A stretch of DNA of 10,960 bases, from positions 1-10,960 of the forward strand of contig JALVUY010000116.1 in assembly GCA_027023665.1 (NCBI GenBank). The letters are read 5' to 3'. The notes beneath the pieces were generated by a model that searched no databases, was not told the origin of the DNA, and worked only from the letters and a program-made list of their open reading frames with translations. The position numbers and the translations under genes were made by a program. Below, in pieces: positions 3,410 through 10,960 of the stretch; position 1 is the stretch's first letter; the number at the start of each line of letters is the position of its first letter. The stretch is from Methanocaldococcaceae archaeon (GTDB lineage Archaea; AGJL01; Methanococci; Methanococcales; Methanocaldococcaceae).

Positions 3410-4174
3410 TTATTTTTGTAATGTTTCCAATATCATATTTAACATTTCCTTACTATTTGCTACAATAATATTTAATCTATCTGTTGCATTTAATTTAAAT
3501 TTAAGTTCTTTTCCATTTTCGTCAGTTATTAATGCTCCTGCCTCCTTACATATTATATATGAGGAGGCGATATCCACCGCTCTAACTTTTGGTCTTATAT
3601 CTAAAACAGCGTCTAAGGAACCTTTTGCCACATAACACATCTCTAATCCAAAGGCACCAAATATTCTAACTCTTTTAACTTTATCTCTTAATTTATTAAT
3701 ATCTGTTTTATTATTAGGATAGTAACTTATAGTTATGTCATTAGGGTCAAAATCTTTAACTTTAATTTTTTCTCCATTTAAATAACTTCCTTTTTTATAA
3801 TATGCCTCATAAAAGCTTTTAGTTATAAATTCATATGTTAATCCATAGTAAGGTTTATTATTCTTATAAACCCCAAAACAAAAGGCAAAGAATGGAATTC
3901 CATTTATAAAATTAAATGAACCATCTACAGGGTCTATAACAACAGTCCATTCACTACCATTGTCTATAATTCCAATTTCTTCACTAACAATATTTACATT
4001 CAAAGGTTTCAAATACTTTAAGGCAATATCTTCACTTATTTTATCAAAAATTTCTGTATCATCACCACTCGGAGATTTTCCAACAACATAAGATTTCTCT
4101 TTTTTCCCAAAATACTTTAATATTGAACTCTCAATTTCCTTAGCAATATTTTTTCCGATTTCATCCCATTTCAT
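3410..4174 (-). CDS. suhB: bifunctional inositol monophosphatase / fructose-1,6-bisphosphatase
   Basis: This is a 254-aa class IV FBPase/IMPase that dephosphorylates myo-inositol 1-phosphate (phospholipid and compatible-solute synthesis) and fructose 1,6-bisphosphate (gluconeogenesis). The metal ligands of the family are all visible: E65 in VSEE, D81 and D84 in DPVDGS, and D201 in RAVDIAS. These positions agree with those I recall for M. jannaschii MJ0109. The start is fixed by GATGATC, a good match to the methanogen anti-SD, 4-5 nt before the ATG on the minus strand. An in-frame ATG 15 nt upstream hits a stop after two codons. Its 3' end faces pyruvate kinase, so a gluconeogenic and a glycolytic enzyme are neighbours but transcribed separately. 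Confidence 0.93.
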   Translation of the reverse strand: MKWDEIGKNIAKEIESSILKYFGKKEKSYVVGKSPSGDDTEIFDKISEDIALKYLKPLNVNIVSEEIGIIDNGSEWTVVIDPVDGSFNFINGIPFFAFCFGVYKNNKPYYGLTYEFITKSFYEAYYKKGSYLNGEKIKVKDFDPNDITISYYPNNKTDINKLRDKVKRVRIFGAFGLEMCYVAKGSLDAVLDIRPKVRAVDIASSYIICKEAGALITDENGKELKFKLNATDRLNIIVANSKEMLNMILETLQK

Positions 4175-7454: not shown

Positions 7455-8120
7455 GTGCAGATTCCAATTTTAATAGTTCGTTTAAAAACAAATAAACCAC
7501 TAAAAAAATCACAAACACCATTTTTGAGAGGTTATATTTTAAATATGTTTGATAAGGAAAATTATGTGGAGTTGCATAATCATAGCGGGAATGGTTTTGT
7601 CTATACCTATCCAAAAATACAGTATAAAATCATTAGTGGAGATGCTGTTTTAATTGGTATAAAAGAGGGAATAAATATTTTAGGAGAAATTATTTTACAC
7701 ATTAGAGAGTTGAATTTGAAAGGGGAAGTTTATAAGGTTGTAAATGGTTATGCAAAGGTTAAATTTGAAGAATTTGGAGTTGCAGATGAGATGATAAAAT
7801 ATAAGTTTATATCTCCATGGATTGCCTTGAATGAGAGGAATTATTTGAAATATAGAGAGTTGGATGATGAAGGAAAAAAAGAATTGTTAGAAAGGATTTT
7901 AATTGGAAATGTTTTGTCAATGAGTAAGTATTTAAATTACACTGTTGAAGAAAAACTAAAAGCAGAACTTTTAAAATTTGATGATTTAGTTGTTAAATAC
8001 AAAGGCAATAAATTTATTGGCTTTTTTGGAGAATTTTTAATTAACTTTAATATCCCAAATTATTTAGGAATTGGAAGAAAAGTGTCTAAAGGTTTTGGAA
8101 GTGTTGTTAGAATACCATAG
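7455..8120 (+). CDS. cas6: CRISPR endoribonuclease Cas6 (Cas6b type)
   Basis: It cuts the CRISPR transcript inside each repeat to release crRNAs. The 221-aa protein has the double ferredoxin-fold signature end GIGRKVSKGFGSV (about 205-217), the glycine-rich loop of Cas6. LHNHSGNGF near the N-terminus contains H41 and H43, spaced like the histidine pair reported as important in Methanococcus maripaludis Cas6b (H38/H40). That match is from memory. The start is GTG 7455, with GGTGAT 3 nt upstream (7446-7451). It stands alone, 50 bp after the nuclease gene and on the strand opposite the cas1-2-4 genes. The last codons (ATACCATAG) resemble the arms of the hairpin repeats just downstream, so the extreme C-terminus may have been altered. 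Confidence 0.85.
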   Translation: MQIPILIVRLKTNKPLKKSQTPFLRGYILNMFDKENYVELHNHSGNGFVYTYPKIQYKIISGDAVLIGIKEGINILGEIILHIRELNLKGEVYKVVNGYAKVKFEEFGVADEMIKYKFISPWIALNERNYLKYRELDDEGKKELLERILIGNVLSMSKYLNYTVEEKLKAELLKFDDLVVKYKGNKFIGFFGEFLINFNIPNYLGIGRKVSKGFGSVVRIP

Positions 8121-8174
8121 AGGGGGCTTTGATTTCTTTATTGGTATATATCTCTATATTTTTTAGAAAAACTA

Positions 8175-8198
8175 TTTTTCATCCTTATTTTAATAAAC
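8175..8198 (-). repeat. decayed CRISPR repeat fragment
   Basis: This 24-bp stretch matches the first 24 positions (plus-strand reading) of the locus CRISPR repeat, including the block CATCCTTATTTTAAT, with four mismatches. The other 13 bases are gone and are replaced by the start of a GC-rich hairpin. It lies farthest from the leader and is the most diverged copy, as expected for an old trailer end. Confidence 0.65.
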
Positions 8199-8262
8199 CC
8201 ATAGGGGCTTCGCCCCTATTGGTATCCCGCCCCATAGGAGGGTTCCACCCTCCTATTGGTAT
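8198..8262. repeat. two tandem GC-rich hairpins with compensatory differences
   Basis: Hairpin 1 pairs CCCATAGGGGC (8198-8208) with GCCCCTATTGG (8212-8222) around a TTC loop. Hairpin 2 pairs CCCATAGGAGGGT (8231-8243) with ACCCTCCTATTGG (8247-8259) around TCC. Each has a single mismatch at the same place near the base. Both are followed by TAT, so TATTGGTAT recurs at 8217 and 8254. The stem tops differ between the two but both stay fully paired. In this very AT-rich genome, GC islands usually mark structured RNA. It could be an ncRNA, the cas6 3' end or terminator, or a small mobile or palindromic repeat. The structure is certain; the role is not. Confidence 0.8.
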
Positions 8263-8318
8263 ACCTCCCATAATAAGCCTGCTTTTTTTAATTTTTAATT
8301 ATTTTTATTTTTATACAG

Positions 8319-8355
8319 GTTTCCATCCTTATTTTAATGGACTACCGATTCAAAC
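8319..8355 (-). repeat. orphan diverged CRISPR repeat
   Basis: This full 37-bp copy of the repeat is in the same orientation as the array repeats at 8807 and 8881. It differs only by ACTACCGATT in place of ACTAATTATT (three adjacent substitutions at 8345-8347). It has no neighbouring repeat at spacer distance. With the array repeat at 8807 it brackets a 451-bp segment carrying a membrane-protein gene and a truncated kinase. Confidence 0.85.
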
Positions 8356-8367
8356 AATAAAGATTTA

Positions 8368-8383
8368 TAGAAAGGTTTATAAT
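8368..8383 (+). promoter_or_regulatory. promoter of the small membrane-protein gene
   Basis: Purine-rich TAGAAAGG (8368-8375) runs directly into TTTATAAT (8376-8383), a good BRE-TATA pair. Start of transcription would fall near 8402-8406, just before the GGTGAT at 8413. A second TATA-like TTTATATA at 8396-8403 is too close to the start codon to give a leader. Confidence 0.5.
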
Positions 8384-8421
8384 TAATTTTATATTTTTAT
8401 ATAAAGATGTTCGGTGATAGA

Positions 8422-8724
8422 ATGAAATGGTTAATTAAACTAATAATATATTTGATTGTTTTGTTTATTCTATATATAATTGCCGCAGTTATGTTGGCGG
8501 TGGATAATTTTGTATTGAATATGATTGCAATTGTTATTTTGTTTGGAAGTGTGATATGGATATATTATAAAATTTTAGTATCAAAATATTTCTGGTTCAT
8601 CGGAATACCAGTATGTATCATAATGATTATGTTAAATCCGATTGTTGGTATTATATTTACGCTTGCATTACATTATTTAAGAGAATGGTTGATAAAAAGG
8701 AAGAATAAATCAAAAAATCTATAA
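8422..8724 (+). CDS. small membrane protein of unknown function
   Basis: I do not recognise this family. It is a 100-aa, highly hydrophobic protein with a helix at about 4-27, a second at about 31-55, and a long hydrophobic stretch at about 58-90 that could be one or two helices. It ends in a basic tail (LIKRKNKSKNL), suggesting a cytoplasmic C-terminus. ATG 8422 is preferred over an upstream ATG at 8407 because GGTGAT (8413-8418) stands 3 nt before it. The kinase start at 8740 follows 15 bp after the stop, as in an operon. The gene lies between two same-orientation CRISPR repeats, so it is either an insertion or the remains of a neighbouring region joined to the array. Size and topology would also suit a viral or plasmid membrane protein, but nothing proves that. 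Confidence 0.7.
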   Translation: MKWLIKLIIYLIVLFILYIIAAVMLAVDNFVLNMIAIVILFGSVIWIYYKILVSKYFWFIGIPVCIIMIMLNPIVGIIFTLALHYLREWLIKRKNKSKNL

Positions 8725-8739
8725 AGTATGGTGATTTAG

Positions 8740-8850
8740 ATGATAATTGCGTTTAGTGGAGTGCAAGGGGTTGGGAAAGATACATTAGCGAAAAAAGTGT
8801 ATAATAGTTTCCATCCTTATTTTAATGGACTAATTATTCAAACAATTTGA
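8740..8850 (+). pseudogene. P-loop nucleotide kinase N-terminus, truncated by a CRISPR repeat
   Basis: An excellent ribosome binding site, GGTGAT (8730-8735), precedes ATG 8740. The frame reads MIIAFSGVQGVGKDTLAKKV, a first beta strand and Walker A loop (GVQGVGKDT, residues 7-15) like those of small P-loop kinases. The GKDT spelling resembles phage-type deoxynucleoside monophosphate kinases. After 22 codons (8805) the sequence becomes CRISPR repeat (8807 on). The frame then continues through the whole repeat and stops at 8848-8850 inside the spacer. The resulting 36-aa chimera lacks every other kinase element and is surely inactive as a kinase. The rest of the gene is not in the window. The exact kinase family is inferred from only about 20 residues. 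Confidence 0.7.
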
Positions 8851-8917
8851 CCCAAATAATTGCCCTTTGAGAAAATATATGTTTCCATCCTTATTTTAAT
8901 GGACTAATTATTCAAAC
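8807..8917 (-). CRISPR. minimal CRISPR array: two 37-bp repeats, one 37-bp spacer
   Basis: Two identical 37-bp repeats lie at 8807-8843 and 8881-8917, with one 37-bp spacer at 8844-8880. The plus strand begins GTTTCCATCCTTATTTTAAT and ends CAAAC. The reverse complement ends in ATGGAAAC, like the 5' handle of archaeal crRNAs, so transcription should be leftward. The leader therefore lies at higher coordinates, next to the cas genes. Each repeat can form a weak stem (TCCAT 8884-8888 with ATGGA 8899-8903). No third repeat follows at spacer distance. The distal repeat abuts a kinase fragment in place of a spacer. Confidence 0.93.
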
Positions 8918-8952
8918 ACTACTAACTATAACATATCTAATACACAAACTCC

Positions 8953-8970
8953 TATATAAATCTTTCTTTT
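8953..8970 (-). promoter_or_regulatory. CRISPR array promoter (BRE/TATA)
   Basis: Read on the minus strand, AAAAGAAAGA (8970-8961) is followed by TTTATATA (8960-8953), a textbook archaeal BRE-TATA pair. Transcription would begin near 8931, about a dozen bases before the first repeat. Confidence 0.55.
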
Positions 8971-9026
8971 AACACCCTATTTTTCTGACTGCATCATTAT
9001 CAAAGTGTTTATAAAAGTAAGAAAGA

Positions 9027-9058
9027 TTGTGCAAACTATTTATAAATAAATTGCACAA
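9027..9058. promoter_or_regulatory. 32-bp dyad in the CRISPR leader
   Basis: TTGTGCAA (9027-9034) and TTGCACAA (9051-9058) are exact inverse complements. They share one centre with the inner palindrome TATTTATAAATA (9037-9048). 28 of 32 positions are symmetric. It is a candidate site for a dimeric regulator or leader-binding protein, about 110 bp from the first repeat. The symmetry is seen; the function is inference. Confidence 0.6.
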
Positions 9059-9286
9059 CCATAAACAAAAATCTCAATAATCAAACCTTATTCCATATAA
9101 AATAAGTTTTATCTAACTCTAAAACATACAAAATAAAAACAAATAACAAAAATCTCTAAAAAATATAAATTTTAATAAGAAAAAATTAGTATTACTTTTT
9201 ATCAATTTTCTAATACCAAATTCAAACAACCCCTTTATAAAAGCAAGAAAGTAAAATTAAAGAATCTAATAACAATATTAAAAACT

Positions 9287-9880
9287 TTATTTACAACATA
9301 TATTTCTATAACAACAATCAATGCATTTCCTTTTATTTACTTTAATGTTCAATGGAAACTCCTCATTTTTAATAATCTTAAATATTAAATCTACAAACTC
9401 AATAGCTTTATCAAAATCTTTTTGTTTGAACTTAATTTCCTTAACTAAATTACTACTCCTTACATAAACAATAAATCCTCTATTAACTTCAACTCCAAAG
9501 TTCTCTTTAATTAATAAACCATATAATATGGACTGATACTTGTGAGTTTTAAATAATCTATTCTTATATTCTGAAAATTTGTAATCTAAAGGGGAATAAC
9601 TTCCATCATCCAATTCCAAAACTTCATCCACAATACCAACAATTTTATATTTTTTTGATGATAAATACACATTTAAAAACTTTGCCTTTGCATTTATGGA
9701 TTTTCTAATGTAATTTTTGTTTATTTTTTCTTTTAAGTCATGAATGTTCCTACCAATTAAAACTTTTTCTCTTTTCTCTTCATGTTGAGGAATTCCTAAA
9801 ACTCTTTCAAAATAAACGAATCTTGGACAATACATATACTCAACAACATCAGATACAGTAATCATCTCTTCCAATTCCAT
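9287..9880 (-). CDS. cas4: CRISPR-associated exonuclease Cas4
   Basis: Cas4 is a RecB-like nuclease with an iron-sulfur cluster that trims pre-spacers and checks their PAM before Cas1-Cas2 integrates them. The 197-aa protein shows C18 in YCPR, H47, metal ligand D85 in GIVDEV, the D99-x-K101 pair in PLDYK, and Q116 with YG at 120-121. The C-terminal cysteine cluster (C186, C189, C190, C195, C196) would complete the Fe-S site with C18. The ATG directly follows the cas2 stop with no gap (TAAATG), showing one operon with cas1 and cas2. A weak GGTG lies about 8 nt upstream. Its 3' end faces the leader. Confidence 0.92.
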   Translation of the reverse strand: MELEEMITVSDVVEYMYCPRFVYFERVLGIPQHEEKREKVLIGRNIHDLKEKINKNYIRKSINAKAKFLNVYLSSKKYKIVGIVDEVLELDDGSYSPLDYKFSEYKNRLFKTHKYQSILYGLLIKENFGVEVNRGFIVYVRSSNLVKEIKFKQKDFDKAIEFVDLIFKIIKNEEFPLNIKVNKRKCIDCCYRNICCK

Positions 9881-10165
9881 TTAAAGCACCATCGTCTTTT
9901 TATTATCTCTAACTAAATCCTTATCAAAATCCTCACCAATACAAATCAACTTTCCAAAACATTTCTCGCAAACCTCTATAATATAGACCTTGTCATTTTC
10001 CTCAATAATATTCTCACAAAAAACTCTCAACTCATCAATCCTATTTTTATTCAAACTCCCAGCAAACACACTCTTTTGAATTCTCAATAATCCATAGCTC
10101 AGACATTTATCTGAAATTTTCTTTCTAATTTTGTCATTGCTTATGTCATAAATTACATAAATCAT
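9881..10165 (-). CDS. cas2: CRISPR-associated protein Cas2
   Basis: This is the 94-aa structural partner that bridges two Cas1 dimers in the spacer-integration complex. It has the ferredoxin fold start MIYVIYDIS with the conserved Asp D7, and the family block RIQKSVFAG (about 28-36). Its length is normal. The ATG overlaps the cas1 stop in an ATGA (4 nt), and GGAGAG lies about 6 nt upstream inside cas1. The stop touches the cas4 start. The three genes are translationally coupled. Confidence 0.93.
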   Translation of the reverse strand: MIYVIYDISNDKIRKKISDKCLSYGLLRIQKSVFAGSLNKNRIDELRVFCENIIEENDKVYIIEVCEKCFGKLICIGEDFDKDLVRDNKKTMVL

Positions 10166-10960
10166 AAATATCTCTCCTTTATGTTATTTGCAATCTCATA
10201 ACACTCTTTTTGGATGAAATCAGGAAACTTATACTTTTTTCCTTTAGATTCAAATTCTCTATTAAATACATTTTCATTCATAAATAAAGAGAATTCTCCA
10301 ATCCCTACATCCGACAATGCTATCCCATTATGCAAAGGAACAAAAAACTCATCTTTAACTTTCTTTTTGTTTATAAAATTTACAACTCCTCTATCCACAT
10401 AAACCCTATACATTTCAATTAAATCATAAACCAAACTTGTTTTATTATACCCATCAGAGTGGATAAACCCAACATAAGGGTCTAAACCAGCAATAATGCA
10501 ACATTTTTCAACAATAGGATAAAGCATTCCATAGCCATAATTTAATAAAGCATTAAATTCATCTTTTGCTGGTCTTCTACTTCTTTCTCTAAACTTATAC
10601 TTCTCTGGAAGAGCATAATTAATCCCTTTAAAATAATACTTTGAGGCAATTCCTTCAATTCCAATAATAGTATCTTTTATTGTTCTTTTTGGAATATTAT
10701 AATTTATTTTACTTAAATAATCGTTTAAATCATTAATACATGATTTTATACCTTCAATTAATCCATCAAAATCTCCCTTATGGTTGTGATTCTTTTTTAA
10801 TTCCTTTAAATATGTTATCTGATTTTTCATTTTTCTTTCAATCCATTTTGATGCATATTTTATCCCTTCAATAGTTTCGGAAAATTTTATCTGATTTCTC
10901 CTGATTTTTCCTGTCTTACCTAATTTACAGTGCCAAATCATTCCTGCTGGTTCTTCATTT
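10162..10960 (-). CDS. cas1: CRISPR integrase Cas1 (5' part beyond the window)
   Basis: Cas1 is the integrase that inserts new spacers at the leader end of the array. The reading frame is open to the right edge (codons NEEPAG precede the internal Met at 10941), so the N-terminal beta domain, roughly 60-80 residues, is outside the window. Counting from that Met, the catalytic metal ligands are E96 in GIEGIASKYYF, H161 in GFIHSDG and E176 at the end of SLVYDLIE, with D173 beside it. The start of the visible part (KIRRNQIKFSE..) is the family's RRxQ segment that opens the helical domain. It is the first gene of the cas1-cas2-cas4 operon seen here, overlapping cas2 by 4 nt. Confidence 0.94.
   Translation of the reverse strand, partial: NEEPAGMIWHCKLGKTGKIRRNQIKFSETIEGIKYASKWIERKMKNQITYLKELKKNHNHKGDFDGLIEGIKSCINDLNDYLSKINYNIPKRTIKDTIIGIEGIASKYYFKGINYALPEKYKFRERSRRPAKDEFNALLNYGYGMLYPIVEKCCIIAGLDPYVGFIHSDGYNKTSLVYDLIEMYRVYVDRGVVNFINKKKVKDEFFVPLHNGIALSDVGIGEFSLFMNENVFNREFESKGKKYKFPDFIQKECYEIANNIKERYL

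Follow-up and report, generated by a model that had tools for sequence, protein, structure and literature searches.

The window analyzed here is the whole of contig C116, 10,960 nt in length, from the genome of a thermophilic, methanogenic archaeon; this genome comprises 266 contigs, is 82% complete, and is inferred from its fragmentation to be a MAG. Its first 68 positions (1 to 68) form a perfect 18-nt tandem repeat of 3.8 copies, possibly the reason for the contig end there. On the forward strand, the cas6b gene encoding the crRNA processing nuclease was located at positions 7455 to 8120 (Pfam Cas6b_C, 6.6e-41, and Cas6b_N, 2e-26; PADLOC Cas6/Cas6b), and the adaptation genes were found on the reverse strand, comprising cas4 (Cas4b, 9287 to 9880), cas2 (Cas2b, 9881 to 10165), and cas1 (Cas1b, 10162 to 10959), the last having its N terminus cut by the contig end. 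All three matched their families nearly end to end, cas1 over the part that the contig preserves. Next to cas4 is a leader of about 370 nt (8918 to 9290, reverse strand) of a kind conserved beside arrays of the genus, with one more near-full copy within the MAG, on contig C122 (84%). The array runs leftwards from this leader, and transcription from the leader is expected to be leftwards as well, on the minus strand. On that strand the array consists of the leader-proximal repeat R1 (8881 to 8917), an ordinary 37-nt spacer, S1 (8844 to 8880), a second repeat, R2 (8807 to 8843), a segment of 451 nt (8356 to 8806), and the leader-distal repeat R3 (8319 to 8355), beyond which lies an array-distal element (8173 to 8318) in which half a CRISPR repeat (up to about 8194) is fused to GC-rich hairpins, with AT-rich sequence at the end. 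Repeats, leader, and adaptation genes are thus all present, as in a type I-B-like CRISPR array; interference genes were absent from the window.

R1 and R2 are identical over their 37 nt, and R3, which has the same orientation, departs from them only in three adjacent positions of the 37, where it reads CCG rather than ATT. The 37-nt unit is a genuine CRISPR repeat, as judged from exact matches to its core in arrays of G010 (at least 78, 28 + 50) and G002 (at least 61, 32 + 29), from the adjoining leader and cas4-cas2-cas1 genes, and from a match to Rfam CRISPR-DR7 that was itself below the gathering score (30.7 versus 37 bits, E value of 8e-4). The spacers in those G010 and G002 arrays are about 37 nt. 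Among and within arrays of the genus, positions 27 to 29 of the repeat are variable (ATT, CCG, ACG, GAT, CTA, and others), most of the repeat being constant. The same triplet also changes between neighboring repeats that flank normal spacers, as seen on C122 and at a locus of G001 (L155).

The 451-nt segment between R3 and R2 contains two genes in the forward direction. The first is complete and encodes a small membrane protein (8422 to 8724; 100 aa from the ATG at 8422, before which there is an RBS, GGTGAT, or 105 aa if read from the ATG at 8407). The second is the start of a P-loop nucleotide-kinase-like gene, of which 22 codons (8740 to 8806) are present before it is cut at R2. It has its ATG at 8740, the RBS GGTGAT upstream, and the P-loop GVQGVGKDT, and its frame (8740 to 8850, 36 aa) reads MIIAFSGVQGVGKDTLAKKVYN up to the entry into the repeat at 8807 and SFHPYFNGLIIQTI from there to a stop at 8850, after R2. 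The original prediction that a kinase-like gene start with RBS, P-loop, and 22 codons runs unbroken into a perfect repeat was therefore confirmed in the given sequence. It had further pointed to the frame staying open through the repeat to the spacer, which is real but not notable, since one of the three forward frames of the repeat is open. Such an open frame is a 1-in-3 event, and the idea that a fused gene matters here found no support; we regard the 36-aa frame as incidental and without function, and a functional fused gene was rejected because one of the repeat frames is open regardless.

That the kinase start resembles phage-type nucleotide kinases was supported by PHROG: at E values of 0.0013 to 0.014, the four best matches of the 22 aa (entries 761, 139, 2107, and 1815) were thymidylate, dNMP, and guanylate kinases of phages, sharing a G-x-G-K-D-T-like P-loop motif. 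Two of these alignments were at profile positions 4 to 23 and the others at 20 to 40 and 84 to 101. A phage-type dNMP kinase would be expected to have P-loop, LID, and NMP-binding domains; of these the P-loop alone is present here, and 22 codons are too short for family assignment. Because the Pfam matches were all below the cutoff and an NCBIfam search gave no match, the label is limited to "nucleotide-kinase-like." An intact homologue, which the original prediction had proposed to look for in relatives, did not appear: among 36 genomes of the order there was no close one (best nonself E value of 0.043, from generic P-loops). A search for G..G.GKDT within about 1.5 kb on each side of the membrane-protein relatives returned only the window's own ORF.

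The length of the segment was compared with other repeat-repeat gaps in a survey of 25 loci from 8 genomes, taking neighboring same-strand repeats that matched any of three reference repeats with no more than 9 mismatches; the G002 arrays covered were those among the matches listed. Gaps of 2000 nt or more were left out (those between separate arrays, plus one in G001 that spans a transposon pair), as were two gaps of 1276 and 1546 nt (G008 and G013) that hold a leader remnant and genes. The remaining 143 gaps among the matches listed ranged from 33 to 102 nt, with a mean of 38.3 and an SD of 8.1, compared with 451 nt for the insert; the window's other gap is 37 nt. All but five (138 of 143) were 33 to 50 nt, and of the five longer than 50 nt, three contained a partial extra repeat, one spanned a hairpin element, and one was 64 nt (G010). 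The insert shares with the ordinary spacers of this repeat family (Methanocaldococcus, Methanotorris) the slot, the repeats, the leader end, and the ordinary 37-nt spacer next to it, but differs from them in length. At either edge it passes directly into a complete 37-nt repeat, and no remnant of a leader or spacer was recognized there, flushness on the kinase side being judged by protein resemblance and hence precise to a few codons only.

At full length, the insert DNA was found in 1 of 61 genomes, its own, and the 8 other matching genomes (9 of 61 in all) had pieces of 26 to 49 nt. The single full-length match suggests that the insert is probably foreign to this locus, in keeping with that part of the original prediction, and a mobile element is its likely origin. 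The virus or plasmid source that had been proposed was not found. In plasmids and phages, the insert DNA gave short matches only, all of them spanning less than 80% of the query. Kinase pattern searches returned nothing in viral_contigs or genome_contigs, and an exact 27-mer of the kinase was likewise absent from viral_contigs, where a looser pattern gave 41 stretches; among those with the best scores, many were long phage proteins in which the motif is internal. An exact 28-mer of the S1 protospacer had no match in viral_contigs. The possibility that a virus carries a mini-array of this repeat was also considered and rejected on the weak evidence of zero exact pattern matches in viral_contigs.

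For the membrane protein, a single-sequence search found only itself, and a profile search gave a small Methanococcales family of 14 proteins including itself (E value of ≤0.01), in which the named organisms were Methanocaldococcus, Methanotorris, and Methanofervidicoccus. At an E value of ≤1, 19 of the 61 genomes matched, with values below 1e-4 in its own genome, G024, G016, G009, and G001. The relatives in G024 and G001 are on chromosome-sized contigs, and that in G024 adjoins a gene for an McrBC component (PF10117, 9.7e-64). In viral_contigs, none of 110 pattern stretches was confirmed by the profile, and no match was found in plasmids and phages at an E value of ≤1.

A simpler form of the site was observed in a relative, G009 (L146), in which cas6b, in three pieces with stops, is followed by one repeat, the leader, and a decayed cas4. 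This repeat, the one found in a search allowing up to 11 mismatches, carries the CCG triplet like R3, although its first bases are degenerate, unlike those of R3. On the leader side of R3, the surplus of the window over G009 consists of the insert, R2, S1, and R1, and beyond R3, away from the leader, the window carries the hairpin element, for which the G009 site has no counterpart. Since new spacers enter between the leader and the first repeat, the order insert-R2-S1-R1 is the expected trace of two acquisitions, the first of them oversized.

Arrays reduced to one to three repeats with a leader were seen in G008 (L142, L151, L219, and L220), G009 (L146), and G013, and in the same three genomes cas4 of this type was present as remnants only; that adaptation has been lost in them is a guess. 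The zone between cas6b and the array holds other DNA in several genomes, namely, a pair of genes shared by G008 and G013 (one of the two with a weak HEPN match below the cutoff), an IS200/IS605-type pair in G001 (Y1_Tnp, 8e-41; OrfB_IS605, 1e-22), and an unassigned ORF in G007. When L142 and L143 around 3450 to 3700 were compared with L149 at 8340 to 9398, the synteny of G008 and G013 near cas6b was found to be broken, with the junction in array-element sequence and a 307-aa gene brought beside cas6b. These breaks suggest that arrays act as rearrangement points.

The hairpin element occurs at the leader-distal side of several arrays (the window, G000:C60:3473, G000:C122:8276, G008, and G013). 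In the window, at 8173 to 8294, it opens with ~20 nt from the start of the CRISPR repeat, followed by AAACCCATAGGGG and GC-rich hairpins. With 16 matches in 3 of 14 genomes of the genus, it looks like a dispersed element mimicking the CRISPR repeat.

A second candidate case was located in the same MAG on contig C60 (L150), in which the hairpin element is followed by one repeat (3535 to 3571) and then by 314 nt to the contig end, with no leader. This piece is an antisense fragment of an ATPase gene with a 4-nt deletion relative to its homologues. By itself the 61-aa piece had no Pfam match, and the full-length relatives in G007 and G013 belong to the ATPase_2 family (Pfam PF01637, 5.5e-76 and 6.3e-71). 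Homology to L191 and L210 reaches the repeat edge, at ATTAAA/G with a 1-nt ambiguity, and the sequence of the relatives goes on. The leader-side flanks of other repeats (23 picked and two more) were all leader-like, as called by eye and for many, including the two added, by BLAST. No empty site for C60 was found among the loci examined, and a plasmid search with the piece gave a single match, 67 nt long, to a plasmid record of Methanocaldococcus jannaschii. C60 may be a second giant spacer, of at least 314 nt; as the contig ends inside the insert and the far boundary lies beyond it, the case is suggestive only. In C60 at about 3640 to 3690 and in ATPase relatives, there is also a stretch with palindromic CGAAGCTTCG in some copies that is absent from others, resembling an inserted coding repeat.

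With a repeat at each end of the 451-nt segment, its presence is most simply explained by insertion of a DNA fragment, in the manner of a spacer, between the old repeat and the leader. We consider it slightly more likely than not (probability of roughly 0.55) that the segment is a large pseudo-spacer captured by the adaptation machinery, on the basis of its slot and size, the flush complete repeats, the one-repeat site of G009, the presence of the adaptation genes, the C60 case, and the precedent of SiL-E1. By this account, Cas1-Cas2, with Cas4, would have integrated an untrimmed fragment of a foreign replicon at the leader-repeat junction, bringing in the small membrane-protein gene and the kinase gene start. 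The old repeat would have been duplicated to give R2, with S1 and R1 coming from a later, normal acquisition. Should transcription of the array start at the leader, Cas6b would cut at the repeats and 3' trimming could follow; the ~37 nt next to R2 could then remain as a usable guide, which would be antisense to the kinase start.

Several findings stand against capture. A fresh duplication should copy R3, yet R3 (CCG) differs from R2 and R1 (ATT), although this triplet also varies around normal spacers elsewhere. Failed trimming is not readily explained by Cas4 either, which has nearly full-length family matches and no obvious defect. The relatives of the membrane protein are in cellular genomes, with none in the viral contigs, phages, and plasmids searched, and the host genome is a fragmented MAG. 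In a type V-A system, loss of Cas4 shifted or lengthened spacers only modestly (PMC9419969), so loss of trimming alone is not obviously enough to account for 451 nt.

Homologous recombination and an assembly slip would both look like capture. In the former, two spacers from the same element, targeting sites about 414 nt apart, would have recombined with it so that spacer-repeat-spacer was replaced by the contiguous stretch of the element. Neighboring spacers from one element are expected after primed acquisition, and the exchange would leave the same flush ends. It is also the alternative scenario of the SiL-E1 authors (PMC3718332). Nevertheless, we judge it unlikely, since both spacers would have to match the element with the correct order and strand, and crossovers would have to occur twice within homologies of ~37 nt. 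In addition, no NGG or NGA was seen by eye after the first 33 to 45 nt of the insert, these being the complement of the CCN/TCN PAM that we assume for this system and that may not be its own.

Ranked next, and likewise rather improbable, is an assembly artefact in which the assembler slipped from an ordinary 37-nt spacer into the identical protospacer of a co-sampled virus or plasmid and back again, thereby importing the 451 nt. Repeats and protospacers are branch points in assembly, the 266 contigs of the MAG attest to its fragmentation, and the same slip, occurring once, would account for C60, which ends inside its insert. Against this, two coordinated slips would be needed here, with word sizes at or below the spacer length, and the 4-nt deletion in the C60 ATPase piece is unlike a gene of a live element; neither point is decisive.

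Less probable again is that the insert belongs to a rearranged zone of variable cargo between cas6b and the array, into which genes moved and in which deletions ended at the repeat edges by chance. The other DNA found there in G008, G013, G001, and G007 and the broken synteny in G008 and G013 would fit such a zone. However, that DNA is not flush between two complete repeats, being preceded by a leader piece in G008 and G013, by a partial repeat in G001, and by no first repeat in G007. Two end points would have to coincide with repeat edges in the window, with C60 providing a third, and G009 has the one-repeat site without cargo. Finally, the view that recombination linked the end of the array to a kinase gene, or that the array replaced the 3' part of that gene, leaving a fused gene, is very improbable despite the real gene start, RBS, and open frame, because the segment does not lie at the distal end of the array but has the same-orientation repeat R3 on its far side, because its open frame is a matter of chance, and because no kinase remainder was found past the array, where the leader and cas4 lie instead.

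Returning to capture by the adaptation machinery, the 451-nt insert and the C60 piece of at least 314 nt both end at a repeat edge, and repeated uptake of gene-sized DNA by the Cas1-Cas2 of this lineage is conceivable, though we hold it doubtful. In the prevailing view, the Cas1-Cas2 ruler and Cas4 trimming keep spacer length within narrow limits. If repeated capture were true, CRISPR adaptation would, besides supplying short guides, be an occasional route of gene capture, and the repeat-proximal end of a giant spacer could still serve as a guide. Such a site can be misread as a fused gene or an array end.

In our literature search, SiL-E1 of Sulfolobus islandicus LAL14/1 was the only large spacer recognized among the matches listed. 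It comprises ~2 kb resembling pING1-like plasmids and lies flush between identical repeats; its authors, to whom no previous report of spacers this large was known, suggested either faulty protospacer processing or homologous recombination with matching spacers (PMC3718332). That case raised two questions, one on the uptake of long DNA by the integrase and one on the immunity that such a spacer might confer, which a gene-sized segment in a spacer slot, a relative with the empty site, and a possible second case would make testable. SiL-E1 (PMC3718332) shares with the window insert a size far over spacer length, ORFs inside, a position between repeats with spacer-repeat units adjoining, and absence from the relatives examined (here, a full-length match in 1 of 61 genomes and the one-repeat site of G009). 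It differs in having five ORFs in ~2 kb rather than one gene and a gene start in 451 nt, and in having known similar plasmids, whereas no matching element was found here in plasmids, phages, and viral contigs. Its host is crenarchaeal with subtype I-A and III-B cassettes, compared with I-B-type cas6b, cas4, cas2, and cas1 here, and its flanking repeats are identical, while R3 and R2 differ at 3 of 37 positions. Size, slot, and absence from relatives thus agree between the two, whereas identical repeats and collinearity with a known element are features of SiL-E1 only; on this comparison, the window insert is a probable further member, alongside SiL-E1, of what seems to be a very small known kind.
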